Positions 12,299-37,069 of a stretch of 64,000 nt of DNA are shown here, one piece after another. Within the stretch, counting starts at the first letter, position 1; every line of letters starts with the position of its first letter. The DNA lies in assembly GCF_024385525.1 (NCBI RefSeq), contig NZ_JANFLU010000001.1, positions 434,001 through 498,000 on the forward strand, written 5' to 3'. The position numbers were made by a program, and so were the translations under genes. The stretch comes from Arthrobacter sp. zg-Y238. Its GTDB lineage: Bacteria; Actinomycetota; Actinomycetes; Actinomycetales; Micrococcaceae. The notes under the pieces were generated by a model. The model had not been told where the DNA came from. It ran no database searches and saw nothing but the letters and a program-made list of their open reading frames with translations.

Positions 12299-12991
12299 TC
12301 AATATGTCCCGGGAGATGGTCCCACCGGTCCCGAAGCTCCCGGGCAGGCCGGGGGATTGCGATCTTTCCGCCGCGCGCAGATGGATGCCAGGTTTATCGA
12401 GACCGGCATCATGACGACTGTCCGCGAGGTCCTGGGCCGACGCGTCCTTCGCCGGGAAATCAGACGCACTTGAGCCGGAGCTGCGGGCCCGGCCGGAACC
12501 TCGGCGCGGATCTCGTCGTCGACGTTCACCCGCCCGCGGCTCAGCACGATGCCCATGAGTCCCGTCTTCCGCACGACTTTTCCGGCGCTGTTGAGGGGCA
12601 GCACTGTTTTGAGCAGCCCGGCCTGGAAGCGGTCAATCTGCCGGCAGGGGTTCCGCAGCCCGGTCACCTGGACGACGGCGTCGGGCCCGATCCGCAGGAG
12701 TGTTCCCTCGGGCAGGTTCAGGAGGTCGATGCCGCGGGTGGTGATGTTTTCGCCGAGGTCGCCGGGACCCACCTCGAAGCCGTCCTGCGCCAGTTCCTCG
12801 AATAGCTCCGCGTGGATCAGGTGCACCTGCCGCAGGTTGGGCTGTCTCGGGTGGGACCGCTTTCTGAACACATGCTGCACGGTGGTGCCGGAATGCGCGT
12901 CTTCGTCGACGCCCAGCCCTTCCACGAGCAGAACCGATTCCACCAGGTCCTTGCTGAAGTTGTGCCTGCTGCTTTGACTCGGCAGGCGCAA
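12299..12991 (-). CDS. MOSC domain protein, copy 1 (damaged duplicate of the gene at 23476)
   Basis: The MOSC core is almost identical to that of the gene at 23476-24039 (shared LVEGLGVD.DAHSGTTVQH, GDLGENITTRGIDLL, GLRNPCRQIDRFQ with the conserved Cys). DNA similarity runs from about 12460 to 12985 and then stops. An extra G near 12485 shifts the frame, so the expected ...KCV stop at 12460 is missed and an unrelated Arg/Pro-rich tail is added. The N-terminal extension of copy 2 is also missing, leaving only a TTG start. MOSC proteins handle the molybdenum cofactor or activated sulfur; this copy may be a pseudogene. Confidence 0.65.
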   Translation of the reverse strand: MRLPSQSSRHNFSKDLVESVLLVEGLGVDEDAHSGTTVQHVFRKRSHPRQPNLRQVHLIHAELFEELAQDGFEVGPGDLGENITTRGIDLLNLPEGTLLRIGPDAVVQVTGLRNPCRQIDRFQAGLLKTVLPLNSAGKVVRKTGLMGIVLSRGRVNVDDEIRAEVPAGPAAPAQVRLISRRRTRRPRTSRTVVMMPVSINLASICARRKDRNPPACPGASGPVGPSPGTY

Positions 12992-17307: not shown

Positions 17308-17383
17308 TTTGCCCGGATGACACGGTCCGCTCTACGAAATCATGCAGCCCGATTTGGTAGGCGGCCTGGCTGGGCGTACCCGG

Positions 17384-18997
17384 TCAGGCGCGGGACTCGT
17401 CCCTGAGGAGCCAGACCGCACTGTCCGCCGGAAGCAGTCCCGCATCGGTCAGGGGCGATGATGCCAACACAACGCTGCCTTGCGGAAGGGCACAGGGCTC
17501 CTCACCCATGGCCACGGCAAGCAGGAACCGGTCCCCGCGCTCGCAGATGAGCAACCCGTTGTCCTGGACGTGCCAAGTGCTGGCGTCGTCAGGGGAGAAG
17601 ATCTCTTTTTCGGTCAGCTGCCTCCGCAATTCGAGCGCCTCAGTAACGAGATGCAGAGTTGACCCGCGATCGTTCCTGTGTGCTTCCACAGATCGCGATC
17701 CCCACAAAGCCGGTGTCGGCAGCCAAGGTTCGGCTGCCGCTGCGGGGGAGAACCCGTAGGCATTGTCGGGCGCGATCGTCCAGGGCACCGGGACACGAGC
17801 CCCGTCACGGGACACCCCGGCCCGGGTCCACATGGGATCCGCTCGGGCGTGGAGCGGCACCTCAGCTTCGGGCAGGTTAAGCTCCTGGCCTTGGTAGATG
17901 TACGCGCCACCGGGCAGTCCCAGGATGGCGAGCAAGCCCGCACGCGCGCGGAGGGTTCCGCGTTCACCGCCACCGAACCGTGTCACAGAGCGGACAATGT
18001 CGTGGTTCTCGAGTGCCCAGGTCAGCGGCGCCCCGTGTTCTTTCCGAGCGGCTTCGAGTTCAGTGCCGACTGCGGCCCAAGCTGCGGCATCCCAGCCCAG
18101 CTTCACGAAGGCAAATGCGAAGGCCTGATGCATCTCGTCATGCCGGGTGTACCGGGCAGCGCGGTGCGGTTCCAGATTCACCTCGCCTACCAGCACCCGA
18201 GTGGGGGAGTAAGAGTCGGCAACGCGGCGCCAGCGCCGGTACACCTCGTGCACTTCATCCTGATCGGATACCTGCGGGTTGGAGCGCAGCCCGTCGACGA
18301 CGGCGTCAGTGCCTTCAGTGTCGGGCAGCCCGTCCGCTTTGAACAGGGCGTGTGCGACGTCGATGCGCACGCCGTCCACGCCCTTGTTGAACCAGAACCG
18401 GAGCACGCCCTCGAAGTAGTCGCCCACTGCGGGGTTGCGCCAGTTCCAGTCCGGCTGCTCCGGGGAAAAGAGGTGCAGGTACCACTCCTTGTCCGTGTCC
18501 GAGCCAGGATTCACCCGGCTCCAGGCACGGCCGCCGAAGACGCTCTGCCAGTTGTTCGGCGGGGTGTCGTCATCAACGCCGTTCTCGAAGTGGAACATCG
18601 CCCGTTCGGGTGAGCCTGAATCGGCGGCGACGGCAGCTTGGAACAGAGGGTGCTCCGATGAGCAGTGGTTGGGCACCACGTCGAGGAAGATCCGAAGCCC
18701 CAGAGCGTGCGCTGCCTCGAGCACTTGGTCGAATTGTTCCATGGTGCCGAAGAGGGGATCGACCGCACAGTAGTCGCTGACGTCGTAGCCCTGGTCCACC
18801 TGCGGGGAGGGCTGGAACGGGGTCATCCAGATGCCGTCGACGCCGAGTGAGGCAATGTACGGCAGGCGGTCCAGCAGGCCCGCAAGATCGCCCACCCCGT
18901 CACCGTTGCCGTCGGCGAAGGAGCGTGGATAGACCTGGTAGATGACGGCGTCCTGCCACCAGCCGGGCTTCTGCCCCCGGGCCGTCGGCCGGCTCAT
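17384..18997 (-). CDS. Glycoside hydrolase family 13 alpha-glucosidase
   Basis: A 537-residue GH13 enzyme. Conserved regions appear in order: DVVPNH (region I), GVRIDVAH (region II, nucleophile Asp), GEVN (region III, general acid Glu) and ENHD (region IV, transition-state Asp). The start WWQDAVIYQVYPRSF...DGVGDL is typical of oligo-1,6-glucosidase/alpha-glucosidase, cytoplasmic with no signal peptide. Its ATG overlaps the permease stop (ATGA). It is the last gene of the lacI-binding protein-permease-permease-GH13 operon, so it hydrolyses the imported alpha-glucoside. Confidence 0.93.
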   Translation of the reverse strand: MSRPTARGQKPGWWQDAVIYQVYPRSFADGNGDGVGDLAGLLDRLPYIASLGVDGIWMTPFQPSPQVDQGYDVSDYCAVDPLFGTMEQFDQVLEAAHALGLRIFLDVVPNHCSSEHPLFQAAVAADSGSPERAMFHFENGVDDDTPPNNWQSVFGGRAWSRVNPGSDTDKEWYLHLFSPEQPDWNWRNPAVGDYFEGVLRFWFNKGVDGVRIDVAHALFKADGLPDTEGTDAVVDGLRSNPQVSDQDEVHEVYRRWRRVADSYSPTRVLVGEVNLEPHRAARYTRHDEMHQAFAFAFVKLGWDAAAWAAVGTELEAARKEHGAPLTWALENHDIVRSVTRFGGGERGTLRARAGLLAILGLPGGAYIYQGQELNLPEAEVPLHARADPMWTRAGVSRDGARVPVPWTIAPDNAYGFSPAAAAEPWLPTPALWGSRSVEAHRNDRGSTLHLVTEALELRRQLTEKEIFSPDDASTWHVQDNGLLICERGDRFLLAVAMGEEPCALPQGSVVLASSPLTDAGLLPADSAVWLLRDESRA

Positions 18998-19884
18998 TTG
19001 GTGGCACCCGAGGTGAGTCCCTCGACGATCCGCCGCTGGAAGATGAGAACCATGATGACCAACGGGACGGTGACGATCACTCCCGCTGCCATTTGCTCAC
19101 CGAAGGGTGCCTGGAACTCCGTCGCCCCTGTGAACTTGGAAATGGCGACCGTGGCAGTCTGCCGTTCGGGATCATTGATCATCGACAGCGCGATGATGAA
19201 CTCGTTCCAGCTGTGGATGAACGTGAGGATCGCCGTCGTGAAGACGCCGGGGGCGGCCAACGGCAGGAGGATCTTCCGGAACGCCTGCCACTTCGTGCAG
19301 CCGTCAATCATCGCCGCCTCCTCCAGGTCGAAGGGCAGCGCCTTCATGAAGGTGGTGAGATTCCAAACGGCAAGCGGGATGGCGAAGGACAGGTTGGGCA
19401 CGATCATTGCCTGGTAGGTGTTGATCCAGCCGATGTCCGTGAACAGGCGCAGCAGTGGCACCACCACGGAGATGCCGGGGAACATGGAGGTGGCAATAAC
19501 GAGGCCGAGGATCACGGACTTGAACCGGAAGTTCAGCCGCGAGATGGCATAGGCGGCGAAGATCCCGAGCACTAGTGCCGCCGTCGTCGTGGTGCCGGCG
19601 ACGATCAGGCTGTTCAGCAGGGCCTGGCCGAACATCGTGGATCCGTCGAAGACCTTCAGGTAGTTCTCGAGTGAGAAGGGCTGGGGAATGAGGGTGTTGT
19701 CGAAGATATCTGCCGTGCGGCGGAAGCTGGAGACCAGCATCCAGTAAAAGGGTGAGAGGCAGTACACGAAGATCGCGGCGAGGCCGAGGTACGTGAGGTA
19801 ACTCTTCGCGCCGCGCTTCGCGGGTTTCCGCTGCGGGGCGGGGTCGGGGGTGTCCGCGCGTGTCAGGAGGGGGATCTGGGTCAT
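18994..19884 (-). CDS. Carbohydrate ABC transporter permease (MalG-like, CUT1)
   Basis: A 296-residue permease starting MTQIPLLTRADTPDPAPQR, with six membrane segments and the EAA loop EEAAMIDGCTKWQAFRKILLPLAAPG (about residues 205-230; the G..I.P spacing contacts the ATPase). The start is fixed by the ATGA overlap with the upstream permease; the longer open frame is in the wrong phase for that gene and is rejected. It is the second permease of a CUT1-type sugar importer. Confidence 0.93.
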   Translation of the reverse strand: MTQIPLLTRADTPDPAPQRKPAKRGAKSYLTYLGLAAIFVYCLSPFYWMLVSSFRRTADIFDNTLIPQPFSLENYLKVFDGSTMFGQALLNSLIVAGTTTTAALVLGIFAAYAISRLNFRFKSVILGLVIATSMFPGISVVVPLLRLFTDIGWINTYQAMIVPNLSFAIPLAVWNLTTFMKALPFDLEEAAMIDGCTKWQAFRKILLPLAAPGVFTTAILTFIHSWNEFIIALSMINDPERQTATVAISKFTGATEFQAPFGEQMAAGVIVTVPLVIMVLIFQRRIVEGLTSGATK

Positions 19885-20879
19885 GCCTTTGCCTTCCGGG
19901 AGCCGGCCTTGCGGAGGGTACGCGTCTCCTTGGTCCCGGCGACGTCGGCGCCGAGCAGCTTCACGAAGACGATCGCGACCAGGGCCACGTACAGGAACAG
20001 GATGATGGCGAACGCCGACGCCGAGCCGTAGCGCAGCTGGTTGGATTCGTCCCAGGCGAGCATCGAGAGGGTCTCCACGGATTGTTTGCCGGGGCCGATC
20101 AGGACGAACGGCAGGTCGAACATCCGCAGGGCGTCGAGCAGCCGGAAGAGGACGGCGACCAGCAGCGTCGGCTTCACGAGCGGCAGGGTAATCGAACCCA
20201 GCGTGCGCCACCAGCCGGCGCCGTCGATGCGTGCGGCCTCGTACACCTCCTCCGGGATGACCTGCATGCCGGCCAGGACGAGCAGGCCGATGAACGGTGC
20301 CGTTTTCCAGACTTCGGCGATGATCACTGCGGCTTTGGCCTGGAAACCTTCGGCGGTCCAGAGGATTTCCGTGCCGATCAGGGTGTTGGCGATGCCGTCC
20401 GACTGGAAGATCCAGCGCCACAGCAGTCCCGAGACGGCGGTGGGGACGGCCCACGGGATGAGGATGCTGGCGCGCAGGATGCCCCGGCCGCGGAACGCCC
20501 GGTTCATGGCCAGGGCCAGGCACAGCCCGAGCACGGTTTCCAGACCGACGGTGGTGATGGTGAAGAAGGTGGTGTTGGCGAGGGCGTTCAGGAACCGTTC
20601 CCCGGACTCCCCGGCAAGGAGGTCCAGGTAGTTGGCCAGCCCGACGAAGGTCTCACCTTCGGCCACGAAGCCGTCTTCGTCGAGCCCGGATTCCTCCCGG
20701 AAGAGCGACTGGTAGAGGGCGGACACCAGGGGGTAGGCGATGACCAGGCCCAGGACCAGCAGGGTGGGGGACAGCAGCAGCGCGGCCATCCTGCCTTCGC
20801 CGGAGGTGCGGGTGCCGGGCTTGTGCTTGGGGGCCGGGCCGTCGGGACGGCGCGGGGGCGCAGCGGTGCTGGTACTCAT
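19881..20879 (-). CDS. Carbohydrate ABC transporter permease (MalF-like, CUT1)
   Basis: A 332-residue permease with a basic, Pro-rich cytoplasmic N-terminus (MSTSTAAPPRRPDGPAPKHK), about six membrane helices and the EAA loop EEVYEAARIDGAGWWRTLGS with ITLPLVKPTLL. It follows the binding-protein gene and overlaps the next permease by 4 bases. No ATP-binding gene is in the operon, so a shared ATPase of the MsiK type encoded elsewhere is expected, as is usual in actinobacteria. Confidence 0.93.
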   Translation of the reverse strand: MSTSTAAPPRRPDGPAPKHKPGTRTSGEGRMAALLLSPTLLVLGLVIAYPLVSALYQSLFREESGLDEDGFVAEGETFVGLANYLDLLAGESGERFLNALANTTFFTITTVGLETVLGLCLALAMNRAFRGRGILRASILIPWAVPTAVSGLLWRWIFQSDGIANTLIGTEILWTAEGFQAKAAVIIAEVWKTAPFIGLLVLAGMQVIPEEVYEAARIDGAGWWRTLGSITLPLVKPTLLVAVLFRLLDALRMFDLPFVLIGPGKQSVETLSMLAWDESNQLRYGSASAFAIILFLYVALVAIVFVKLLGADVAGTKETRTLRKAGSRKAKA

Positions 20880-20954
20880 GGAGTTCCTAACTGTGCACGG
20901 GGAATGGGAATCAGACGGCGGCCGCGGGCACAGGCGCCTGCGGCCGCCGGCGGC

Positions 20955-22277
20955 CTATTCGGCGGAGAGCTCTTCGAGCTTCGCCTGCATGTCGGCCAGG
21001 GCCGTCTCCGGATCCTTCTCCCCGGTGAGTGCCGCGTACGCCTCTTCCTGAATGGCCGTCGTCGTCGCGCCGTACTTCACGACCTGCGGGCGCGCCTGCG
21101 CGTTCTCCAAAGATTCCAGGAGCGTGGGATAGAACGGGCGCTTTTCAACAACGGCGGGATCCTCGAGCAGTGAGGGGTAGACGGGAGCCCGCGAACTCTT
21201 GTCCAGGCGTGCTTTCGACTCTTCCTCGCTGGTGAAGAACTTGATGAAGTCCAGGGCCGTTGCCTTGTTCTCCGTGAACGGCGAGACGGCGAGGTTCCGG
21301 CCGCCCAGCGTGGAGACCCCCGGATTGTCGCCGATGCCGGGAACCGAGCTGATGCCGAATTTGTCCACAACGGCGCTGGAACCGTCCGTGGCGGTCAGCG
21401 AGGAGTAGACGAACGGCCAGTTGCGCAGGAACACGAGATCGCCTTCTTGGAAGGCCCGGCGGCCCTGCTCCTCGATGTAGGTGATGGCGTCACTGGGAAC
21501 CAGGCCCTCGTTGAAGGCGTCGGTGAGCTGGGTGAGTCCGGCGAGGGCTTCGGGGGTGTTCACCGTCGGGGCACCCTCATCGTCGAAGACCTGGCCGCCG
21601 GCTGATCCGACGGCTTCGGTGAAGTTCACCGTCAGGGCCTCGTTTTTGTCGAACTGGCCCGCGTAGCAGGACATGCCCTCCGCCTCGGGGAGGGCGAGGA
21701 CCTTCTCGCACGCCGCCGTCATCTCTTCCCAGTTCGTGGGCGGGGCTTCGATGCCGGCCGCCTGGAGGAGGTCCGTGCGGTGGTAGAGCAGGGCACCGTC
21801 CGTGTAGTACGGGGCGCCGTACAGCGTGCCGCGGTAGGTTGCGGTCTCCACTGCGGCAGGGACCATGGTGTCCGTGGGCAGTGCGTCGTCGGGCAGCGGC
21901 ATGATCCACCGGTTCGCGGCGAACTCGGAGGTCCAGACGACGTCGAGGTTCAGGACGCTGAAGGTCTCCGACTTGATCTGGGCGTTCTGCACCAACTGCT
22001 GGCGCTGCTGGTCCGCGGAATCGGGCAGCTCGACGAACGTCACCTGCTCCTCGGGGTGCTCGGCGTTCCATTTGTCGATAGTGTCCTGCGCGGCGCCGGA
22101 GGCATCCCGGGAGGAGACATAGTTGATGGGGCCCCGGCCCTCGAACGCTGCGGCCGCGTCCTGCTGCGCTTCGGGTTCTTCACTGTTTCCTCCGCCGCAG
22201 CCGGTGAGGACCAGGCCGGAGATGGTCAGTGCTGCTGTTCCGAGGAGGATCTGTCGAAAGTGGCGTCGTTGCCTCAT
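20955..22277 (-). CDS. Extracellular alpha-glucoside-binding lipoprotein (CUT1 solute-binding protein)
   Basis: A 440-residue lipoprotein. It has a basic start (MRQRRHFRQ), a hydrophobic segment and the lipobox LVLTGC with Cys near residue 26, then GGGNSEEPEAQQDAA as a flexible tether. The mature part is a family-1 sugar-binding fold: SRDASGAAQDTIDKWNAEHP, NLDVVWTSEFAA, DDALPTDTMVPAAVETATYRG, then YGAPYYTDGALLYHRTDLL. It lies 37 bases downstream of lacI and upstream of the two permeases. Confidence 0.92.
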   Translation of the reverse strand: MRQRRHFRQILLGTAALTISGLVLTGCGGGNSEEPEAQQDAAAAFEGRGPINYVSSRDASGAAQDTIDKWNAEHPEEQVTFVELPDSADQQRQQLVQNAQIKSETFSVLNLDVVWTSEFAANRWIMPLPDDALPTDTMVPAAVETATYRGTLYGAPYYTDGALLYHRTDLLQAAGIEAPPTNWEEMTAACEKVLALPEAEGMSCYAGQFDKNEALTVNFTEAVGSAGGQVFDDEGAPTVNTPEALAGLTQLTDAFNEGLVPSDAITYIEEQGRRAFQEGDLVFLRNWPFVYSSLTATDGSSAVVDKFGISSVPGIGDNPGVSTLGGRNLAVSPFTENKATALDFIKFFTSEEESKARLDKSSRAPVYPSLLEDPAVVEKRPFYPTLLESLENAQARPQVVKYGATTTAIQEEAYAALTGEKDPETALADMQAKLEELSAE

Positions 22278-22314
22278 GCTGTGCTCCTTGTAGTGGCGAG
22301 TGGTGCGTGGCTTT

Positions 22315-23298
22315 TTAGTGCTGGTCTTGGGGCGGGCTGGTGGACCCGCGGGCAATGAGGGTGTGCGGCACAATGCGCGGACCGAGGTCGCGGGTGCGCA
22401 GCAGTTTGGCGACCGCCGTCCTGCCCATTTCCTCCAGCGGCTGGGCGACGGTGCTCAGCGGAGGGTGGACGTGCTGGGACGTGGACGTGTTGTCGAAGCC
22501 GAGTACCGAGACGTCCTCCGGCACCCGGCGGCCACGCTCCTGCAGCTCGTTGACGGTGGCGGCGGCCATCTCGTCGCTGACCGCGAAGACGGCGGTGAGG
22601 TCCGGTTCCTGCCGAAGCAGTTCATCCAGGCCCGGGGCGCCGCTCTCGTAGAAGAAGGTGCCGTGGGCGACGACGGCGGTGTGGCCTGCCTCGGCCATGG
22701 CCCGTTCGTAGCCGCGCTGGCGCGGGTGGGCGACGAAGACCGACGCCGGATCCCCGGCGAGCAGGCCGATCCGCCGGTGGCCCAGCGAGAGCAGGTACCG
22801 GGTGGCATCGTAGGCGGCCCGCTCGTCATCAATGGAGACGCTGGGGGAGCCGGACCGGTCACTGATGGCCACGGAAATCAGGGGGATGTTCGGGCCGAGG
22901 ATCTGCCGCATTTCCTGGGTGATGACGGCGGAAATCAGGATGACGCCGGCGGCCCGGTAGGTGCGCAGCGTCCGCAGGTACCCGTCGATGAAGACGGACT
23001 GCAGGCCGGTGCGGCCGAGCATGACCGCATAGCCCTGCTCGCGTGCGGCTTCCTCGACGCCGCGCATCACCTCGGAGGCAAGGGCGTCGGAGACCATGGG
23101 GGCGAGGAGCCCGATCACCGAGGTTTGCCGGGTCTTTAGCCCGCGGGCCATGAAGTCGGTCTCGTAATTGAGGCGGGTTACGGCCTCTTCGACGCGGCGC
23201 CGGGTCTCCTCGGAGTAGCCCACGAGGCCGTTGACCACCCGGGACACGGTGGCCGGGGAGACGCCGGCATGCTTCGCCACATCCCTGATGGTTGCCAT
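22315..23298 (-). CDS. LacI family transcriptional regulator of the alpha-glucoside operon
   Basis: A 327-residue LacI-family repressor starting MATIRDVAKHAGVSPATVSR, the helix-turn-helix, followed by the hinge helix (YETDFMARGLKTRQT). The periplasmic-binding-protein-like core has SVIGLLAP, AISDRSGSPSVSIDDERAAYDATRYLLSLGHRRIG (split segments) and SVLGFDNTSTSQHVHPPLSTV. AAGGAGGC precedes the ATG. It is the first gene of the operon and has operator-like dyads in its own promoter, so it is probably autoregulated and induced by the transported sugar. Confidence 0.92.
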   Translation of the reverse strand: MATIRDVAKHAGVSPATVSRVVNGLVGYSEETRRRVEEAVTRLNYETDFMARGLKTRQTSVIGLLAPMVSDALASEVMRGVEEAAREQGYAVMLGRTGLQSVFIDGYLRTLRTYRAAGVILISAVITQEMRQILGPNIPLISVAISDRSGSPSVSIDDERAAYDATRYLLSLGHRRIGLLAGDPASVFVAHPRQRGYERAMAEAGHTAVVAHGTFFYESGAPGLDELLRQEPDLTAVFAVSDEMAAATVNELQERGRRVPEDVSVLGFDNTSTSQHVHPPLSTVAQPLEEMGRTAVAKLLRTRDLGPRIVPHTLIARGSTSPPQDQH

Positions 23299-23332
23299 GG
23301 CCCGCCTCCTTCTGGTCTCCTGTGTGGGGCGC

Positions 23333-23353
23333 AAACGGTTTACGTAAACGGTT
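23333..23353. promoter_or_regulatory. LacI-type operator in the operon promoter
   Basis: A CG-centred palindrome TTTACGTAAA (23339-23348) is flanked by the direct octamers AAACGGTT at 23333-23340 and 23346-23353. The outer GCGCAA/TTGCGC bases continue the symmetry half a step out of phase. A related CGTAAACGGG lies at 23405-23414. On the minus strand TGTGACA (about 23364-23370) could be a -35, placing the operator across the -10 region. Confidence 0.6.
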
Positions 23354-23419
23354 GCGCGATCTCTGTCACACCCTATGCGGAGGCGTGGAGGATCCATGAC
23401 GTTTCGTAAACGGGCAGGA

Positions 23420-23453
23420 AAAATCCCCTCGAACCCGGGTCCGAGGGGATTTT
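23420..23453 (-). terminator. Intrinsic terminator of MOSC gene copy 2
   Basis: A perfect 12-bp inverted repeat, AAAATCCCCTCG (23420-23431) and CGAGGGGATTTT (23442-23453), with a 10-base loop and flanking A/T runs. It lies 22 bases beyond the stop of the MOSC gene and upstream of the lacI promoter. Confidence 0.85.
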
Positions 23454-23475
23454 CAAAAGGTCTGTCGCCGGGGAA

Positions 23476-24039
23476 TCAGACGCACTTGAGCCGGCGCTGC
23501 GGCCCAGCCGGAAGCTCAACACGGATCTCGTCGTCGATGTTTACCCGCCCGCCTGCCAGCACAATGCCCATGATTCCCGTCTTCCGCACGGTTTTTCCGG
23601 CGTTGTCGCGGGGCAGCACCGCTTTGAGCAGCCCGGTCTGGAAGCGGTCGATCTGCCGGCAGGGATTCCGCAGCCCGGTCACCTGCACCACGGCGTCGGG
23701 TCCGATCCGCAGGAGTGTCCCCTCGGGCAGGTTCAGGAGGTCGATGCCGCGGGTGGTGATGTTTTCCCCGAGGTCGCCGGGGCGCACCTCGAAGCCGTCC
23801 TGCGCCAGTTCCTCGAACAGCTTCGCATGGATCAGGTGCACCTGCCGCAGGTTGGGTTCCGTCGGGTGGAACCGCTTTCTGAACACATGCTGCACGGTGG
23901 TGCCGGAATGCGCGTCTCCGTCGACGCCCAGCCCTTCCACCAACAGAACCGAGTCGACCCGGTCCTTGCTGAAGTTGTGCTTGCTGCTTTGACTGACGGA
24001 GACCACTTGCGGTCCTTCGGGAGTGCGGGTGGCAGTCAT
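23476..24039 (-). CDS. MOSC domain protein, copy 2 (intact)
   Basis: A 187-residue protein beginning MTATRTPEGPQVVSVSQSSK. The MOSC fold is shown by LLVEGLGVDGDAHSGTTVQH, VHLIHAELF-like LIHAKLFEELAQDGF, LRPGDLGENITT-like RPGDLGENITTRGIDLL and the Cys in TGLRNPCRQIDRFQTGL. This small YiiM-like subgroup binds pterin/molybdenum cofactor derivatives or acts in sulfur transfer; the exact activity is unknown. It has its own terminator. About 92% similar by eye at DNA level to the region 12460-12985, which lies 11 kb away in the same orientation. Confidence 0.85.
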   Translation of the reverse strand: MTATRTPEGPQVVSVSQSSKHNFSKDRVDSVLLVEGLGVDGDAHSGTTVQHVFRKRFHPTEPNLRQVHLIHAKLFEELAQDGFEVRPGDLGENITTRGIDLLNLPEGTLLRIGPDAVVQVTGLRNPCRQIDRFQTGLLKAVLPRDNAGKTVRKTGIMGIVLAGGRVNIDDEIRVELPAGPQRRLKCV

Positions 24040-24126
24040 TGACGGATCATTTCATATCCCGCCACGGCCTTCGGGAAGGCGCCAGAGGTCGAGCAAACTC
24101 CCTGCACCTGTCGGTGCGGCTGCCGT

Positions 24127-24702
24127 TCAGGAAACGCCGGGGAGGGAGAAGGAGAAGAACCTTCCCTCCCCAAGAGGGGTCGCGTTGACCCGGTACAGGC
24201 CGGAGACCAGCGCGGCGGACAGGACCGACGACGTTTCACCGGCGGCGACGACCCGGCCGTCGTCGAGGGCAATGATTCGGTCGGCATACCGTGCAGCCAG
24301 GTTCACGTCATGCAGGGCGGTGATCACTGTGAGTCCGTCCCCCGCGAGATCACGCAGCAGTTCGAGGGTTTCGAGCTGCGCGCGGACGTCGAGGTGGGGC
24401 GGCGGTTCCGTCTCCGGCGCCCACCCAGCGGCGTACGGGCCGTCGGGGAAGGCGACGCCGGAGATCCGGTCCTCGAGGCCCAGCGCGAGCAGCATTTCAA
24501 TGGACGTGGATTTGATCGCCACCACCTCCTCCGGCGGCTGCTCGAAGGTCACCGGCGTGCCGCAGTTGTCCACGGTGAACGGGAAGCCCGCCGCGGCGTC
24601 GGGCTGTGGGTCGGGCCGCGCCCCGGCGGAAGGGCCGGCGCACCCGCCGAGCAGGAGGGCGGCCAGCACGGGAAGCATCAACCAGCGGATGCGGCGCGGC
24701 AT
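24127..24702 (-). pseudogene. In-frame deletion fusion: ABC solute-binding lipoprotein joined to the C-terminus of an ABC ATPase (remnant of a proposed F420-0 transporter)
   Basis: The 191-residue frame starts with a lipoprotein signal (MLPVLAALLLGGC, Cys21) and a cobalamin/siderophore-type binding-protein N-domain (PFTVDNCGTPVTFEQPPEEV, then VAIKSTSIEMLLALGLEDRI). Near residue 101 it switches abruptly to an ABC ATPase tail: HLDVRAQLETLELLRDLAGD is the D-loop region, LTVITALHDVNLAARYADRI the H-loop, ending in DGRVVAAGETSSVL. The rest of the binding protein, the permease and the first two thirds of the ATPase are gone. The ATG overlaps the fgd stop. A binding protein-permease-ATPase cassette next to cofE and fgd is the arrangement described for the proposed F420-0 importer of actinobacteria. 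Confidence 0.8.
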
Positions 24703-25721
24703 CAACGCAGTCCTTCCAGACGTGGTTTGAGGTCGCTTTGGAAAAGGTCCATGAACCGGAGCTGGTCGTGGCCCGGGGCGTGGAACACAAGGTGGTTGAA
24801 CCCAAGGTCCACGTATTCGGCGATCCGCTCGACGACGTCGTCGGGGTCCGTGCCCACGATCCACCGGCGGGCGATCTGCTCCAACGGGAGCGCGTCTGCG
24901 GCGCGTTCCATCTCCACCGGGTCGGTGATGCTGTGCTTCTGCTCCTTTGAGAGGGACAGCGGAGACCAGAACCGGGTGTTTTCCAACGCCTTCTCCCGGC
25001 TGTGCTCATAGGAGAGCTTGATTTCGATCATCCGGTCCATCCCGGATAGATCCCGGCCCGCGGCGTCCGCACCCGCAGCCAGCGCCGGCATCAGCTGCTC
25101 GGCATACAGCTCGTGGCCCTTGCCGGAGGTGGCAATGAACCCGTCCCCGGCGCGGCCGGCATATTTCGCCACTACGGGGCCGCCCGCGGCGATGTAGACG
25201 GGTACGCCGCCCGCCGGGCTGTCGTAGACGGAGGCGTTGGAGGTGGAGTAGTAGTCGCCGTCGAAACTCACCCGGTCCCCGTTCCACAGCTCCCGCATCA
25301 GGCGCACCGCCTCGCGCAGCCGGGCGAACCGCTCGGAGAACTCCGGCCAGTCCTGTTCTCCGGGGCCGCGGAACCCGGTCGCGATTTCGTTCAGCGCCTC
25401 ACCGGTCCCCACACCCAGCCAGATCCGGTCCGGGTAGAGAAGACCCAGCGTGCCGAAGGCCTGGGCAATGACGGCGGGGTTGTACCTGAAGGTGGGCGTG
25501 AGCACGCTGGTGCCCAGCCGGATGTGCGAGGTGCGTTCCCCGGCCGCGGCGAGCCAGGCCAGGGAGAACGGGGCGTGTCCGCCCTGATGCCGCCAGGGCT
25601 GGAAGTGGTCGCTGACTGCCGCGGACGCGAAGCCGTGGGCTTCGGCCGCGACGGCGAGCTCCACCAGCTCACGCGGGCCGAACTGTTCTGCGGAGGCCTT
25701 GTAGCCCAGGGTCAGTGTCAT
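24702..25721 (-). CDS. fgd: F420-dependent glucose-6-phosphate dehydrogenase
   Basis: A 339-residue luciferase-like TIM-barrel enzyme that matches mycobacterial FGD1 closely from the first residues: [72 protein letters not shown] and [14 protein letters not shown], to [13 protein letters not shown]. It oxidises glucose-6-phosphate to 6-phosphogluconolactone and reduces coenzyme F420. The start MTLTLGYK overlaps the cofE stop (4 bases), and its own stop overlaps the scarred ABC gene. It supplies F420H2 for the fused flavoenzyme and other F420-dependent reductases. Confidence 0.95.
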
Positions 25722-26539
25722 GATCTGCTGCTTTCTGTGTCGGCGACGGCGTTGAGGCCCGCGGCGAAACCGGCCGCGTAGGCCTCGTCGCTGCCGAGCC
25801 GGAACATGTCCGTCTCCGGGGTGCGGATGATGGACCGGGCGCCGGGGAGGTCCAGCGGGCCGACCGCGTCCGCGTAACCGCGTACTACCGCCACGGGCAG
25901 CCCGAGGGTCTTGCCCTTGACCAGGTCCCCGACGGCGGCGAGTTCGTCGGCCAGGCACGGGCGGGTCACGGTCAGGGGCCGGCCGGCCGAGTCCGGGGCG
26001 CCCTCGAGCTCCTCGAACACCCGGACGCCAGCGGCCCCGATGGCGATGTCGGTCTGCCCCTCCCGCCACGGCCGGCCGATCGTGTCGCTGAGAATCACCC
26101 CAATGTGCGGGCCCGCGGCGCGGATGCCGGCGGCCAGGATCCGGGCCGAGCGGTCGGGATCCTCCGGCAGCAGCAGGACGGTGCCCGCGGGAACGTTGGA
26201 GGCGTCCACCCCGGCGGCCGCTCCCACAATGCCCAGACGGTTCTCGACGATGCGGGTGCCGTTGCGGGTGGCGACCACCCGGGCCGTCTCCGCACTGATC
26301 GCTGCCTCGCGGTCCGCGGCCCGCACCAGCCGCCCCTCGGCCTTGGAGACGATCTTGGACGTCACAACCAGGATGTCCCCGTCCATCAGCGGCCGTGCCG
26401 CGGCGGCGGCAAGGATCAACGCGACAAGGTTGTCGCCCGCCGCGATCTCCGGGAGGCCGGGAAGCGCCCAGACGGACAGTTCCCGCGGCGGGATGGTGCG
26501 CGCCGGGCTGGCTGGTGCGTCGGTGTCGCCCCCGGTCAC
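25718..26539 (-). CDS. cofE: Coenzyme F420-0:L-glutamate ligase, single-domain (CofE)
   Basis: The GTG start overlaps the upstream stop (GTGA). The 273-residue protein has the CofE fold: [108 protein letters not shown]. It adds glutamates to F420-0. Mycobacterial FbiB is about 450 residues because of a C-terminal FMN domain that reduces dehydro-F420-0; that domain is absent here, so the reductase must be encoded elsewhere or replaced. Translationally coupled to its neighbours. Confidence 0.93.
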
Positions 26540-28869
26540 CGTGCGGCTCCCGCGGCGGGCTCGGTGGTCGCCGACGCCTGGTCCGCCGGCTCGAGTTCCG
26601 ACGCGTGGTCCGCCGACTCGTGCTCCGGGGCGATGTAGAAGTTGTCGCGGAACAGGCCCGTGGGGTCCCACACCGCCTTCAGCGCGCGCAGGCGCTGCAG
26701 GTTCCCGGGCGGGAAGGCGCGGGCGACGACGTCGGGCCCGGTGTCGGTCTCGAAGCTCAGGTACATGCCTTCCAGCAGCGGCACCAGTTCCGCCCAACGC
26801 CGGGCCATCTGGTCGCCGCGTCCGCCCAGCATGGCGATCACGAAGTTCGCGTCCCGCCAGCCGTACGCGGTGGCCTCCGCCGGGAGGTTCGCCGCGGCAC
26901 CGCCGGCAGAGCGGATGCTCAGGATGAAGGAGGACTCGGCGGCGAGCAGGTCGGTCAGGACACGCGCGACGTCGGCGCTCAGGTGCCGCACCAACCCGGA
27001 GTGGCTGCGCGGTTCGCCCCGGCCGTGCTGATCGCCCTCCGGCGGCACTTCAAGCAAAGCCGCGTACGGCACCATCTGCACAGACTGGTTCGCCAGCGGC
27101 GCGAGGGCTGCGAAGGGCTGGAGCCGCTCGATCACAGTCTCCGGATCGGAGGAATCCACCACGATCAGTGCCTGGACGGCGGTCGAGCCGGGGCTGCCGG
27201 GGCTGATCATCAGGGATCCGGTCACCGTGGGATGTGACCCCTCGATGGTGGTGCCCCACCCTTCGAGGAAGGCCGCGACGTCGTCCGGCGCGAAGAGGAG
27301 CATCGCGAACCCCACCTGCTCGGACACCGGGTGCGCCTCGAACTCGAACGAGACCACCACGCCGAAGTTCGCCCCGGCGCCCCGCACCGCCCAGAACAGG
27401 TCGCTGTTCTCCTCTGCGCTGGCGTGCACGAGCTCACCGTCGGCGGTCACGATGTCCACGGAGCGCAGGTAATCGATCGTCAGCCCGCGCTCGCGGACGA
27501 ACCAGCCGATCCCCGCCGCCGTCGCCAGGCCGCCGACGCCGACGCCGCCGTAGTCGCCGGAGGTGATCGCCAGCCCGTGCGGGGCCAGGGCCTGCGCCAC
27601 CTCGCCCCACCGGGCGCCGGGCTCCACCCGGACCCGGTTGCCGCTGCCCAGGGTGATCGCGTTCAGTGCGTCGAGCGCAATGACGATGCCGCCGGTGTTC
27701 AGGGACCGGCCGGACAGGCCGTGTCCGCCGCTGAACAGCCCCAGCGGCACGTCCCGGTGGCGGGCGGCGAAGCGCACTGCCTCCTGCACTTCGTCGGGGG
27801 TTTCAGGACGGATGACGACGCCGGGCCGGGCGCCGCGGAAGTAGCTGGAGGTGTAGCGGGCGTACCCCCGGTCGCCGGGTAACAGGACCCGCGGGACGAG
27901 GGCGTCGGGGATCGGATCGTCGCGGAAGGACCGGGCGGGTGCTTCCGGCGAGGCTGGCGCGGCGGCGGCTGCGGGGCCTGCGGGGGCGGCGGGTGCGGGT
28001 GCGGTGGTCGGGGAGCCGCTGCGCCGGCGGGCCTGCTCCACCCGGGACCGGATTGCGGGAGCGGTGACCTGCGCGAACCGGCGGAGCTCGGCCGGGTCGT
28101 CGGTGGCTACGATGAACACGCTCACCCCGTGATCCGTTGCCAGCTCGGCCAGGGCCTCGGCGTGGTACTGCGGGGTGATGTTCATCATCCGGGTGATTTC
28201 CCGCGGATCGCGTCCGGCCTTGCGCGCGGCCTTGTCGATCACCTCGTTGCCGCGTTCGACGTCGCCCTGCTTCATCCAGGGAAGGCTCGGCAGCCAGCCG
28301 TCACCCTTGCGCCCGATGATCCCCTGCATCCGGGGTTTGTAGGCGCCCACCCAGATGGGGATGCGGTGTGCAGGTGTCGGGCCCCGCTGCACGCCTGTGA
28401 CGTGGTGGTATTTTCCTCCCGCGTGCAGGGGCGTCGGATCCGCGGTGTCCCAGATGCCCCGGATGATGTCCAGCGCATCGTCCAGCCCGCCGACCGCGTC
28501 CGGGATGGCCAGCAGCGGGGCGCCCATCGACGCGATCGCCTCGAAATACCCGCCGGTGCCGATGCCGAGCTCCGCGCGGCCGCCGCTGAGCAGGTCCAGG
28601 CTGGCGAGGGAACGGGCCAGCACGGCGGGCTGGCGCAGCGGCAGGTTCAGCACATTGCCGGAGACGTGGATGCGTTCGGTACGGGCGGCGACTACCGAAA
28701 GCAGGGTCCAGGTGTCCAGGAACTGGGCCTGATAGGGATGGTCCTGGAAGGTGACCAGGTCCAGGCCGAGCTCCTCGCTGAGCAGGGCCCGGTCGACCGG
28801 CAGTTGAGGGATGGCGGCGGACGGGGTGATGAAGCTGCCGAAGCGCAGCGGGTGCAGGTAATCGGACAT
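26536..28869 (-). CDS. Fused flavoenzyme: luciferase-like (F420-type) domain plus FAD-binding PCMH/BBE oxidase domain
   Basis: A 777-residue two-domain protein. Residues about 1-280 are a luciferase-like monooxygenase TIM barrel ([45 protein letters not shown] in part, [26 protein letters not shown]). An Ala/Pro linker (about 285-315) leads to a berberine-bridge-type oxidase: [28 protein letters not shown] (His for covalent FAD) and [15 protein letters not shown], with a C-terminal NFYIAPEH. The Cys used for a second FAD link in many homologues is not seen ([10 protein letters not shown]). The start may instead be 6 bases upstream. It overlaps cofE. Confidence 0.85.
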
Positions 28870-28897
28870 GGCCACAGCATGCGCGCCACCAGTGCCA

Positions 28898-28926
28898 TTG
28901 ACAATCCGTAGGTAAGCCGCTTACTT
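28898..28926 (+). promoter_or_regulatory. Promoter of the HxlR gene with an overlapping operator
   Basis: TTGACA at 28898-28903 and TTACTT at 28921-28926 are 17 bases apart. The palindrome GTAAGCCGCTTAC (28912-28924) overlaps the presumed -10. Transcription would start near the GTG at 28934, giving a leaderless message. The divergent flavoenzyme gene starts at 28869, so one operator could control both directions. Confidence 0.5.
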
Positions 28927-28933
28927 TTTGTGC

Positions 28934-29320
28934 GTGACTACTTCTGAGACGGGCCGCGCAAACCCTCCGCTAAGCATCAGTGATGAGGAGTGCCGCCGCC
29001 TGCTCGGCGTGATGGAGGTAGTGGGACGGCGCTGGGCCAGCGGGATTCTGCTTGCCCTCGGGACCGGAGCCGAACGGTTCACCGAAATCGAGCACCGGGT
29101 CCAGGGGCTGTCCGGGCGGATGCTCACGCTCCGGCTTCGCGAGCTCGAGGCCGCGGGCCTGGTCGAACGCCTGGTCGAGCCCACCATCCCGGTCAGCGTC
29201 CGGTACCGGCTGAGTGCGCGCGGCATCGACCTGCTGCGCTCCCTGCAGCCCATCGCCGGCTACGCCCGCCGCTGGGAGACTGACGACGCCGGAGAAGCGG
29301 TCTCCGCCAAGAGTGCCTGA
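28934..29320 (+). CDS. HxlR-type winged-helix transcriptional regulator
   Basis: A 128-residue protein (GTG start, VTTSETGRANPPLSISDEE). It has the HxlR pattern LLGVMEVVGRRWASGILLAL, GAERFTEIEHRVQGLSGRML, TLRLRELEAAGLVERLV and a wing ending VRYRLSARGIDLLRSL. There is no Cys, so it is not an obvious redox sensor. It diverges from the F420 operon (flavoenzyme-cofE-fgd), which it probably regulates together with itself. Confidence 0.88.
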   Translation: MTTSETGRANPPLSISDEECRRLLGVMEVVGRRWASGILLALGTGAERFTEIEHRVQGLSGRMLTLRLRELEAAGLVERLVEPTIPVSVRYRLSARGIDLLRSLQPIAGYARRWETDDAGEAVSAKSA

Positions 29321-29464
29321 GCCGGCGGGCCAGCCGCCGCGGACGCCACCCACGGCGGACGCCACCCAGAGCGGTGGCGGGGGTGCAGGGGAATAATTCC
29401 CGGGCGCTTCGTCCTTCCCTGTACCAACAGAAAGACTCTTACTAGGGCGGGGCAGGCGCATGCC

Positions 29465-30097
29465 ATGAGCTGGAACGTCGTTATACCCGTCAAGAGTCTT
29501 GATGCCGCCAAGTCCCGCCTCCGGCGGGACCGCAGCGGTGTAACCGACCTGGCGCTGGCCTTTGCACTCGATACGCTTTCCGCGGTCCGGAACAGCCGTG
29601 GAGCGGGCACCATCATCGTCGTCACGAGCGATGTCCGCGTCCGTACCGCTTCCCCCGCCGGTACGCTTTTCGTGGATGATCCGGGGCTCGGACTCAATCC
29701 GGCGGTCGCGGCGGGGCTCCACGGCGCGGGTCCCGGCAAGGTTGCCGTCGTCACGGCGGACCTGCCCGGCCTGACGGCGGACGAGTTCGACGCCGTCCTC
29801 GCAGATGCCGGCCGACACGAGCGCGCCATGGTCGCCGATCATTCCGGTCACGGCACCACCATGCTCACCAGCCTCGGCGGCCTGATCGTCCCGCGGTTTG
29901 GTCCCGGTTCCCGGTGGCGCCACGAACGGCAGGGTCACGTGGTCCTCCCGGTGCCGCAGGCGTCCGCGCTGCGCCGGGATATCGACACGGCAGAGGATCT
30001 AGCTGCGGCCCTGCGGAACCGGCTCGGGCCGGAGACCCTGAAAACCCTCGCAGTTGCTGCCACCGGACCGGCCGGTTCAGCTGCGGAGACCGGTTAA
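29465..30097 (+). CDS. fbiD: 2-phospho-L-lactate (phosphoenolpyruvate) guanylyltransferase CofC/FbiD
   Basis: A 210-residue nucleotidyltransferase: WNVVIPVKSLDAAKSRLRR (GTP-binding start), TIIVVTSDVRVRT, FVDDPGLGLNPAVAAGL, KVAVVTADLPGLTADEF and the Gly/Thr loop HGTTMLTS. CofC/FbiD links GTP to PEP or phospholactate to make the donor used by CofD in F420 synthesis. It ends in a 4-base overlap with the convergent cofD. It lies 144 bases after the HxlR gene; the gap holds no gene. Confidence 0.92.
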   Translation: MSWNVVIPVKSLDAAKSRLRRDRSGVTDLALAFALDTLSAVRNSRGAGTIIVVTSDVRVRTASPAGTLFVDDPGLGLNPAVAAGLHGAGPGKVAVVTADLPGLTADEFDAVLADAGRHERAMVADHSGHGTTMLTSLGGLIVPRFGPGSRWRHERQGHVVLPVPQASALRRDIDTAEDLAAALRNRLGPETLKTLAVAATGPAGSAAETG

Positions 30098-31077
30098 GGT
30101 TCCCTCACCTCGCCGGCCAGTTGGAGCGCTCCGGCAACAATGGCCGCCGAATCCTCGTCGGTGTTCATCCACAGCGGAAGTGACCGTGCGGGGATCCCGG
30201 CACGCTCCAGCAGCGGGAGGTCACCGGCGTCAACCGGATCGACCAGCCAGCCGTCCAGGAGGCCGCCCTGTGTCCGTGCCCCGTAATGCTGCCCCACGGC
30301 CGCAGCGGAGACGTCGACCCCGATGACCCCCAGACAGATGTCGGCCATCCCGCGCACGGGCGAGCCACCGATGATGGGCGATACGGCGATCACGGGAGCC
30401 GCCGTTGTCCGAAGGGCAGCCGCCATGCCCGGCAGCGCAATGATCGTTCCGACCGACACCACCGGATTGGAGGGTGCCAGCAGGACGACGTCGGCTGACA
30501 GGATCGCCTCCACGGCTTCCGGTGCGGGGGAGGAGGATTCGATACCCCGGTGGACGAACCGGCGGGTCGGGACGTTGCCGCGGTGGCGCACCCACCATTC
30601 CTCAAAGTGGATCAACTGCGTCCGGCCGCTTCCGTCGACGATTTCGACGTGGGTTTCGACTTCGTCGTTCGTAGCCGGCAGGAGGCGGACGCCCGGATTC
30701 CACCGCAAACAGAGCCGTTGGGTCACTTCGGTGAGGGTCAGGCCCTCCCGAAGAAGGGCGGTCCGGGCAATATGGGTGCCCAGGTCAAGGTCTCCCAGGG
30801 TGAACCAGGGCCAGCCGACGCCGTAGGCGGTCAGTTCCGCACTCACGCGCTCGGATTCGCCGGCCCTGCCCCATCCGCGTTCCGTATCGTTGGCTCCGCC
30901 CAGGGAGTACATGATGGAATCCAGGTCGGGGCAGACCCGCAGGCCCGTCAGCCACAGATCATCTCCTGTGTTGGCCACGACAGTGATTTCCGCCCCGGTT
31001 GCCTGTGCCAGGGTTCGGGCGCCGCGGACGAACCGCGCGCCGCCTACCCCTCCGGCGAGGATCGTTATTCTCTTCAT
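30094..31077 (-). CDS. fbiA: 2-phospho-L-lactate transferase CofD/FbiA
   Basis: A 327-residue protein starting MKRITILAGGVGGARFVRG with GGGGG before the ATG. It has the CofD hallmarks: VVANTGDDLWLTGLRVCPDL, SIMYSLGGANDTERGWG, WFTLGDLDLGTHIAR, RWNPGVRLLPATND, HFEEWWVRHRG and LLAPSNPVVSVGTI. It transfers the phospholactyl/PEP group to Fo, giving (dehydro-)F420-0. FbiC (Fo synthase) is not in the window. It is transcribed towards fbiD, so the two are separate transcripts. Confidence 0.94.
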   Translation of the reverse strand: MKRITILAGGVGGARFVRGARTLAQATGAEITVVANTGDDLWLTGLRVCPDLDSIMYSLGGANDTERGWGRAGESERVSAELTAYGVGWPWFTLGDLDLGTHIARTALLREGLTLTEVTQRLCLRWNPGVRLLPATNDEVETHVEIVDGSGRTQLIHFEEWWVRHRGNVPTRRFVHRGIESSSPAPEAVEAILSADVVLLAPSNPVVSVGTIIALPGMAAALRTTAAPVIAVSPIIGGSPVRGMADICLGVIGVDVSAAAVGQHYGARTQGGLLDGWLVDPVDAGDLPLLERAGIPARSLPLWMNTDEDSAAIVAGALQLAGEVREP

Positions 31078-31126
31078 GCGCCCCCCGTTACCTTTTTCGT
31101 AGCCCGTTCCTGATGCAGGATACGAC

Positions 31127-31159
31127 GACGGCCCCTCCGCGGTATGCGGAAGGGCCGTC
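31127..31159. terminator. Hairpin terminator downstream of the OYE remnant
   Basis: GACGGCCCCTCCGC (31127-31140) pairs with GCGGAAGGGCCGTC (31146-31159) with one mismatch and a 5-base loop, followed by ATTT. On the minus strand it follows the duplicated old-yellow-enzyme 3' end (stop at 31171). Confidence 0.7.
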
Positions 31160-31170
31160 ATTTGTTCGGG

Positions 31171-31330
31171 CTAGGAAACCGGAGCCAGTTCCGGGTAGTC
31201 CGTGTACCCGGCGGCGCCGTCGGTGTAGACGGTGGTCTGGTCGATCTCGTTCAGCGGGTGGTCCTCCTGCCAGCGGCGGGCCAGATCCGGGTTGGCGATG
31301 ACGGGACGGCCGACGACGGCGGGTTCGCCG
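31171..31330 (-). pseudogene. Duplicated 3' fragment of an old yellow enzyme (alkene reductase) gene
   Basis: The last about 50 codons (AVVGRPVIANPDLARRWQED, then HPLNEIDQTTVYTDGAAGYT, ending YPELAPVS and the stop) are the same as the end of the intact gene at 32064-33140, with a few silent differences. Similarity begins at CGGGCTAGG, just 3' of the stop, and ends near 31330, where AT-richer unrelated DNA starts. The 5' three quarters is absent. It is either the relic of a tandem paralogue cut by an insertion or a duplication made during one. Confidence 0.85.
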
Positions 31331-33140: not shown

Positions 33141-33453
33141 CAAGTGGGGGTTCCTTTTGTTGCAGGGCTCAGGGCTGAGCTGTCCTGGGACGGACCTTCG
33201 TCTACTGAGCGACAACTGAAACGGACGCCGAGTCTATTCCAGCTTGGTCCGTATAAGCAGGGCGACCCTCAACACAAGTTCTACCCGTGCAGCCAGGTGA
33301 CAGCCCTGCGGGCATGCGACGAGTTGGAGCTTCTGCAGACCGAGACGAAAGTCGCTGCGGATATCGTCGACATTCAGCGGTAGACGGCGAGTCGCAGACT
33401 CGGGGAGAACGTATCGCTGGAGTATTAGAACAAGTCTATTTTGGGGGAAAATA
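33141..33453. other. 313-base gap at the left edge of an AT-richer island, with a possible gene remnant
   Basis: An in-frame segment from about 33220 to the TAG at 33383 (LFQLGPYKQGDPQHKFYPCS... ending ETKVAADIVDIQR) reads like the end of a protein but has no start. It could be a C-terminal fragment left by the event that brought in the neighbouring ATPase gene. No family is recognised. GGGGGA at 33442-33447 is the ribosome site of the next gene. Confidence 0.3.
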
Positions 33454-36042: not shown

Positions 36043-36119
36043 GTTTCGGTAATCTTTGTAAGCCGCTCTCGGCACACGACGTAAAGTGGACTGTCCGGCG
36101 TGCAGGGCAGGTGCTTGTC

Positions 36120-36155
36120 GGAAGACTGACTGCTATCCGGAGCAGTCAGTCTTCC
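36120..36155. terminator. Hairpin, probable terminator of the ATPase gene
   Basis: A perfect 15-bp inverted repeat: GGAAGACTGACTGCT (36120-36134) and AGCAGTCAGTCTTCC (36141-36155), with a 6-base loop, 78 bases after the stop at 36042. There is no T tract. The remaining gap to 36402 holds no gene that I can support. Confidence 0.65.
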
Positions 36156-36402
36156 AACGATCAAGGGAATAGACCAGTGAGTTAGACGTCGGCTGAATAG
36201 AGAGGCATCCAGGGCAGCATAATGTGGCTGGGTTGTCCCCATTCGCCTTGCCTGTCGCTAGACAAAAGGACCGCAGAGGACCCGGCAGCACGGACGGGAT
36301 GAAATTAGCTCGTTAACTGGAGTGTGAAGCTACATCTATTGAACAGCAACCAACTGGGCATGCGAATTGCATGACTACGCCCTGGAGATTCGCCCTGATT
36401 TA

Positions 36403-36870
36403 CTAAAGTCCACGCCAGAGGCGCCAAACTTTTCCGTGTCCCAATGGGTCGTACGTGGAATCTGCTAGCAAGCGCCTCAGTTGAGGATAAGCAGTTCGAT
36501 CCGCCTTGTCGATCTCTGTTGCCACAGGAGCGGTGAGACAAAGGCCTCGGATGTCGCGCCTCCAATAGTCCCACGTATGATCTGTTACCCGCCCAAGGCC
36601 ACGTAATTCGATCTGATCCTCACAGAGTCCTAGGTAGTCTTGCAGTAAGATCCTGTCGTTTTTCGTTACTACCTCCTTTAGCCTAAATCGTTTAGAGCGC
36701 TGGTCCATCAGGGCCCAGAAACGAAGGAGATACTGCATTTCGAAATCCCGATGCATTTGGCGGTTTATGTGTCGGATTTGGATGAACGCAATAGCAACTG
36801 CGAGTAGCGTAAATAGTGAGACAAGGGCAGTTACGCCTTCGGCCCAATTAGGGGGTTGTGTTGAGAACAA
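36403..36870 (-). CDS. Small membrane-anchored protein (DUF4760-like)
   Basis: A 155-residue protein with one N-terminal membrane helix (WAEGVTALVSLFTLLAVAIA, about residues 9-29), then IQIRHINRQMHRDFEMQYLL and a helical, charged cytoplasmic domain (LMDQRSKRFRLKEVV, DYLGLCEDQIELRGLGRV, WDYWRRDIRGL). This layout is that of DUF4760 and related single-helix proteins that often occur in defence or mobile regions. It has AT-rich codon use like the ATPase gene, and converges on it. Function unknown. Confidence 0.65.
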   Translation of the reverse strand: MFSTQPPNWAEGVTALVSLFTLLAVAIAFIQIRHINRQMHRDFEMQYLLRFWALMDQRSKRFRLKEVVTKNDRILLQDYLGLCEDQIELRGLGRVTDHTWDYWRRDIRGLCLTAPVATEIDKADRTAYPQLRRLLADSTYDPLGHGKVWRLWRGL

Positions 36871-37069
36871 GGTTGCCTCACTTAGAATGCGCGTTTGGAA
36901 GTTTTGAGCCTCACGATTGGTGCAAGCCTATCGTGAGGTGAGCGCAGTTTTGACGCGGAACTGTGTAGTGACGGGTCCGCCGGCCAGTTGTTACTGTATT
37001 TGGTTTGTTTACGCGGCGCCTTTTCAAAGTAAACGGTTTCAAGGGTCATTAGAGCCCTAGAGGCTGCCC

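Follow-up and report, generated by a model that had tools for sequence, protein, structure and literature searches.

The stretch analyzed here, 64,000 nucleotides of Arthrobacter sp. zg-Y238 (contig NZ_JANFLU010000001.1) that we refer to as the window, carries a group of F420 genes adjoined by a chimeric open reading frame of 191 residues (24127..24702, minus strand). Next to the chimera on the same strand are fgd (24702..25721, start codon placed by eye), encoding an F420-dependent glucose-6-phosphate dehydrogenase, and cofE (25718..26797), encoding the F420-0:L-glutamate ligase. Both had been named as its neighbors in a preliminary description of this DNA, and both score above the curated cut-offs (TIGR03554, 613 bits against 420; TIGR01916, 227 bits against 180.65, the cofE open frame exceeding the gene and being matched from residue 108 on). 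Farther along lie cofC (29465..30097, plus strand; 2-phospho-L-lactate guanylyltransferase; TIGR03552, 129 bits, cut-off 105) and cofD (30094..31161, minus strand; TIGR01819, 347 bits, cut-off 257.45), the latter for the 2-phospho-L-lactate transferase that joins FO to the phospholactate part of the cofactor, and the genome therefore has CofC, CofD and CofE of the F420 pathway, each over its cut-off. Between cofE and the cofC/cofD pair is an ORF of 779 residues (26536-28875, minus strand), 97% identical in a second genome of the species, which fuses a luciferase-like to an FAD-linked oxidase domain; the former, of F420 type, scores 121.6 bits with TIGR03619 (cut-off 166.9) and the latter is BagK/FevA1-like, far below cut-off.

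The chimeric frame is free of stops throughout (24702-24127) and consists of residues 1 to ~101 of a TIGR03868 binding lipoprotein followed by the C-terminal ~90 residues of an ATPase of the TIGR03873 family. The frame itself, the NCBIfam matches and the alignment to an intact relative described below identify it as the remnant of a binding protein-permease-ATPase cassette. TIGR03868, the model of a putative F420-0 binding protein, aligns with chimera residues 41-107 (E=2e-19, profile positions 1-67 of 287), and TIGR03873, the model of the cassette ATPase, with residues 99-176 (E=1e-25, positions 163-240 of 256). The half derived from the binding protein (24399..24702, minus strand; TIGR03868 E=6e-19 on 24391-24702) comprises a signal peptide, Cys21 within a lipobox-like LLGGC and the start of the N-lobe, and the half derived from the ATPase (24127..24397, minus strand; TIGR03873 E=4e-23 on 24127-24390) retains the D-loop, the H-loop and the tail; the portion of the gene with Walker A, signature and Walker B is missing from the window. 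When the halves are scanned apart the best NCBIfam families are again TIGR03868 and TIGR03873, in agreement with the initial assignment of the frame to a binding protein and an ATPase of an F420-0 cassette. A Pfam-A search was uninformative, with 2-3 families per protein at E<=1, every one below its gathering score. With two partial profile matches and the permease missing, the window does not contain a complete binding protein, permease and ATPase.

Intact cassettes, which the preliminary description had proposed to look for in relatives, exist in the genus. A search of 29 of its genomes with TIGR03868 matched 20 at E<=0.001; in 16 the match is full-length and exceeds the cut-off, one of the 16 being G059, the genome marked as belonging to the same species as that of the window (G000). 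The G059 locus lies on a single 3.64-Mb contig and contains cofD, cofC, cofE, fgd, the binding protein (330 residues), the permease (355 residues) and the ATPase (257 residues) in the order of the window, with the intact cassette occupying the syntenic position of the scar. Identity to G059 is 97.6% over 24399-31322 and 94.5% over 23473-24397, and between these aligned blocks 2251 bp of G059 are missing from the window: the remainder of the binding protein, the entire permease and, as far as Walker B, the ATPase. The stop-free frame and the additional 2251 bp of G059 together bear out the proposal that the frame is an in-frame deletion scar. Because 2251 leaves a remainder of 1 on division by 3, the binding-protein frame is joined to the ATPase frame, an in-frame outcome that would arise by chance about one time in three, so that the open frame alone means little. 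A relocated permease was considered and rejected, since none was found elsewhere in the window's genome, where the best of 6 matches has 38% identity; further matches to the chimera in the same genome reach at most 45%.

In the ungapped-register alignment to G059, with its 2251 missing bp, the deletion junction is at 24396..24399 (minus strand), the last clear match to the binding protein being at 24399 and the first clear match to the ATPase at 24397-24396. It had been suggested that a GAACCG-like stretch at the junction was the microhomology used. GAACC is indeed common to both parents in register, but beyond it the window follows the binding protein (one mismatch, then CCGC) before following the ATPase; since binding-protein letters are retained past this stretch the crossover did not take place inside GAACCG, and we have abandoned the suggestion. 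The 7-bp AACCACC, common to the parents at shifted registers, was rejected as well, as a crossover there would yield a shorter join than that of the window. Exact words shared by the two G059 breakpoint regions reach at most 10 bp when 300 bp are compared, and at most 7 bp when the comparison is limited to 25 bp. We regard the join as blunt or almost so, except for a single letter of uncertain parentage.

Compared with G059 the remnant shows 22 differences (17 mismatches in the 304 bp of the binding-protein half, 5 in the 271 bp of the ATPase half), corresponding to 16 synonymous and 6 nonsynonymous changes with no stop, counts that include changes in the G059 lineage, where the genes are intact. 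In the neighboring genes, full-length in both strains, the synonymous and nonsynonymous differences number 20 and 5 for fgd, 16 and 10 for cofE, 13 and 5 for cofD, and 4 and 4 for cofC. Most of the substitutions in the remnant probably date from a time when the genes were intact and so predate the loss, which makes the deletion look recent relative to the split of the strains.

Could the scar be an artefact of assembly, the strain really having an intact cassette that has been collapsed? The window's genome is a draft of 20 contigs, in keeping with such an account; however, the junction lies inside a contig of 685 kb, the words shared by the breakpoint regions are too short for ordinary assembly collapse, and the permease is on no contig of the assembly, so that we consider an artefact highly improbable. 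It is equally improbable, in our judgment, that the chimera has been retained as a functional short lipoprotein or regulator. Its open frame, intact signal peptide and lipobox and few nonsynonymous changes are what one would expect of a retained protein, but the few changes are explained by recency, the product has no complete domain, and among the matches listed (59 genomes) no protein outside the window's own genome spans both halves. A match in G043 to chimera residues 56-179 falls on that genome's own ATPase gene, beside its intact binding protein. Conservation of the fused protein as a family, named at the outset as a finding that would speak against a scar, is for this reason rejected over the same matches. 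The chimera, which retains no entire ligand-binding protein and no ATP-binding site, should be non-functional.

The intact cassette of G059 was compared with the putative F420-0 ABC transporter defined by TIGR03868, TIGR03869 and TIGR03873 (hypoth_equivalog models of NCBIfam). Its binding protein (414.8 bits, cut-off 392.4) and permease (447.7 bits, cut-off 437.35) exceed the thresholds, and its ATPase, at 301.2 bits, falls below that of TIGR03873 (372.4), although this is the best of 179 families. It resembles the putative transporter in its family scores and in the adjoining cofE and fgd; the differences are that the window copy is a deletion remnant and that the G059 ATPase is below cut-off. 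The F420-0 transporter is a prediction of TIGRFAMs, whose notes propose it for hosts that do not synthesize F420 de novo but have cofE and F420 enzymes, a proposal that probably goes back to Selengut and Haft (2010). G059 corresponds to such a host, with cofE and fgd beside the cassette and cofH not found at E<=0.001, and differs from the proposal in that the cassette is accompanied by cofC and cofD, which it does not need. The cassette belongs to one superfamily with the FecCD/BtuCDF-type importers of siderophores, heme and cobalamin, and the G059 permease also matches BtuC/FhuB and the ATPase FecE/BtuD, all below cut-offs. It differs from them in being surrounded by genes of F420 metabolism and in scoring highest with the models dedicated to F420-0.

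No FO synthase, whether CofG plus CofH or FbiC, was found in the window's genome. The cofH search, which would detect the second half of FbiC as well, gave no match at E<=0.001 in any of the 29 genomes of the genus, including G000 and the single-contig G059; the same search matches 11 of 14 control genomes, over cut-off in 3. cofG was not found in G000 at E<=1e-40 in the search of the order sample described below, a sample that does not include G059. Synthesis of F420 from scratch is therefore not expected in spite of cofC, cofD and cofE, and with the cassette the strain should have lost the one source of deazaflavin that could be identified. These results bear directly on the preliminary description, according to which uptake had been lost and synthesis kept; the loss of an F420-0 importer from a strain with a complete F420 pathway would then have been neutral. 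The cofC and cofD on which it relied are present, over their cut-offs; the synthesis that was to have been kept finds no support in the cofH and cofG searches, and we think a neutral loss of this kind very unlikely. Strain-level loss of vitamin or cofactor salvage genes by deletion is a general notion, and the window resembles it in the simple deletion of an importer that leaves a remnant ORF. It differs in that the precursor synthase is also not found, so that the loss predicts a phenotype and not redundancy.

Within the genus cofE is present in 17 of the 29 genomes, exactly the 16 with an over-cut-off cassette plus the scar genome, and cofD exceeds its cut-off in 2, G000 and G059, both genomes of the window's species; weak partial cofD matches in 17 others (18.9-21.3 bits) were not counted. 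In the 15 other cassette genomes the cassette occurs with cofE and an LLM gene and, over the 14-15 kb fetched, without cofC or cofD, and these genomes fit the original F420-0 proposal of cassette plus cofE. The window's species combines the cassette (intact in G059) with cofC, cofD and cofE, yet no FO synthase was found. Import of F420-0 would make CofC and CofD superfluous and import of FO would not; as far as gene content can tell, the presence of cofC and cofD points to FO rather than F420-0 as the substrate of the G059 cassette.

The searches were extended to 297 genomes sampled evenly across the order. TIGR03868 exceeds its cut-off in 73 of them, and 12 further genomes with only weaker matches, 4 of which carry cofG (G042, G084, G094, G149), were not counted as having the cassette; cofD exceeds its cut-off in 110, with 3 weaker genomes not counted. 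The same 54 genomes have cofG over cut-off and cofH at E<=1e-50, cofH exceeding its own cut-off in 30. Among the 110 genomes with cofD, 50 have the FO synthase (cofG) only, 38 the cassette only, 2 both and 20 neither (Fisher p=1.6e-12 for cassette versus cofG, a value that treats as independent genomes that are not). Counting genera gives a fairer view than such tests: 46 contain cofD, of which 14 have cassette-only genomes, 19 cofG-only genomes, 2 both and 14 neither, some genera being counted twice, and one, g44, has both alternatives in different genomes. Only 2 of the 73 cassette genomes, G231 and G315, also have cofG. Cassette and cofD occur together in 40 genomes; in 22 of these fewer than 5 kb separate cofD from the gene for the binding protein, and cofC is present in 14 of the 22 loci as fetched, a common order being binding protein-permease-ATPase-cofD followed on the opposite strand by cofC-cofE-LLM gene. 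In the other 18 the distance ranges from 9 kb to another contig, so that the linkage of cassette and cofD is not universal. Genomes lacking cofD have the same block without cofC and cofD, even within a single genus (g18; G151 versus G064, G179, G207, G277 and G287). In 33 of the 73 genomes with the cassette, cofD does not reach its cut-off; FO import would be no help there, and F420-0 or F420 fits better. Besides the window's genome, 19 genomes of the order sample (family f17 and others) carry cofD but lack both cofG and a cassette that exceeds the cut-off, one of them, G310 of f17, having a divergent cassette of 38-47% identity; cofD can thus persist without either, and such genomes may obtain FO by another route, perhaps a different import system, or use CofD in another role.

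A quick tree, calculated without bootstrap, was built from 88 binding proteins, 87 of the 88 extracted plus that of Nesterenkonia haasae, for which the state of cofD was not scored; several rows are long, that of G310 very long. The G132 locus, whose contig breaks off directly behind the gene, was left out for that reason, and G059, with cofD ~5.6 kb away, was labeled by hand as cofD-bearing and 'near'. The cofD label requires 9 changes on this tree, compared with 29 on average when labels are shuffled, and is therefore strongly clustered. A division of the cassettes into two subfamilies with and without cofD was nevertheless rejected, since at least 4 of the 9 changes are forced by well-supported branches; one and the same transporter family is found with and without cofD, and gain and loss of cofD are indistinguishable on this tree. 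The binding protein of G059 is sister to that of N. haasae (SH-aLRT 100), apart from both clades of its genus-mates, and in N. haasae, too, the genes run cofE-fgd-binding protein-permease-ATPase (65-85% identity), while the 18 kb fetched gave no match to cofC or cofD. This grouping suggests that the cassette of the window's species was acquired horizontally. The binding proteins of G231 and G315 are sisters on the same tree, with support of 88.

Taken as a whole, the data make it likely, in our judgment, that a recent, strain-specific deletion of 2251 bp knocked out a deazaflavin-precursor importer, probably one for FO. The deletion took most of a three-gene ABC importer and fused its two ends in frame. 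In its intact form the importer would take up a deazaflavin precursor, most likely FO, since the strain encodes CofC, CofD and CofE while no FO synthase was found; CofC and CofD would turn imported FO into F420-0 and CofE would then convert it into F420, to serve Fgd and other F420 enzymes. The window strain would depend on another entry route for FO or F420, or be F420-deficient. More generally, F420-0 import would be redundant where CofD is present, and there the cassette named for F420-0 probably imports FO, to judge from gene content. Less likely in our view, though a serious alternative, is that F420-0 or F420 is the substrate of the cassette throughout these genomes, the adjoining cofC and cofD being leftovers or passengers. 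The 33 cassette genomes without cofD are in keeping with such a uniform substrate, as are the 15 others of the genus, which lack not only cofC and cofD in the fetched loci but also any genomic cofD over cut-off. A gene without substrate should decay, however, and that cofD has persisted without FO synthase in cassette genomes of 14 genera (38 genomes), frequently in one operon-like block with the cassette, counts against leftovers. We are evenly divided about a broader proposal, in which the family is a deazaflavin salvage importer, carrying FO in cofD-bearing actinobacteria, where importer, CofC, CofD and CofE would replace FO synthase in many genera of one order, and F420-0 or F420 in genomes with cassette and CofE, the window strain being a natural knockout beside an intact strain of the same species.

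FO is found outside producing cells, having been reported in the supernatant of Mycetohabitans rhizoxinica (ISME J, PMC11104420). In a 2021 review of F420 (PMC8498797) the single mention of a 'transporter' concerns what may be an exporter in M. rhizoxinica, and the terms uptake, salvage and auxotroph are absent, as are salvage, uptake and transport from a paper on CofC and CofD (PMC8764529). In the literature searched, mostly without subscription journals, no experimental treatment of the F420-0 transporter was found by its exact name, and the titles and abstract starts listed in these searches include no treatment of FO uptake. A same-species pair with and without the cassette, cofH being found in neither, makes transporter function directly testable, nature having provided in the window strain a test of the substrate of the predicted transporter. 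Cassette and FO synthase hardly ever coincide in genomes with cofD, a distribution suggesting that FO produced by their neighbors may sustain many actinobacteria. It follows as well that cofC, cofD and cofE alone are insufficient to call an organism an F420 producer.

Divergence from G059, calculated in bins of 250 bp, is 2.0-5.2% around the scar and 0.4-6.2% across 24.4-31.3 kb. A recombination tract around the scar was rejected, as the bins there stand out little, though dS of the binding-protein half is 0.18, compared with 0.04-0.08 in the ATPase tail, fgd and cofE. At 23.47-23.75 kb divergence climbs to 11-18%, beside a stretch absent from G059. This stretch (17313-23473, ~6.2 kb) has no counterpart at that place in G059, where ~90 bp separate the flanks; its end is ~0.9 kb away from the junction of the scar, and it contains, by eye, an alpha-glucosidase, two sugar ABC permeases, a sugar-binding lipoprotein and a LacI-type regulator. 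A second strain-variable region near the cofC and cofD genes, 33163-37068, does not align to the G059 locus and has flanks that are 95% identical. The scar itself is adjoined by a MOSC-type gene (23476-24039), of which there is a second copy 11 kb away (~12458-12979); the MOSC-type gene of G059 matches both, with DNA identities of 94% and 89%.
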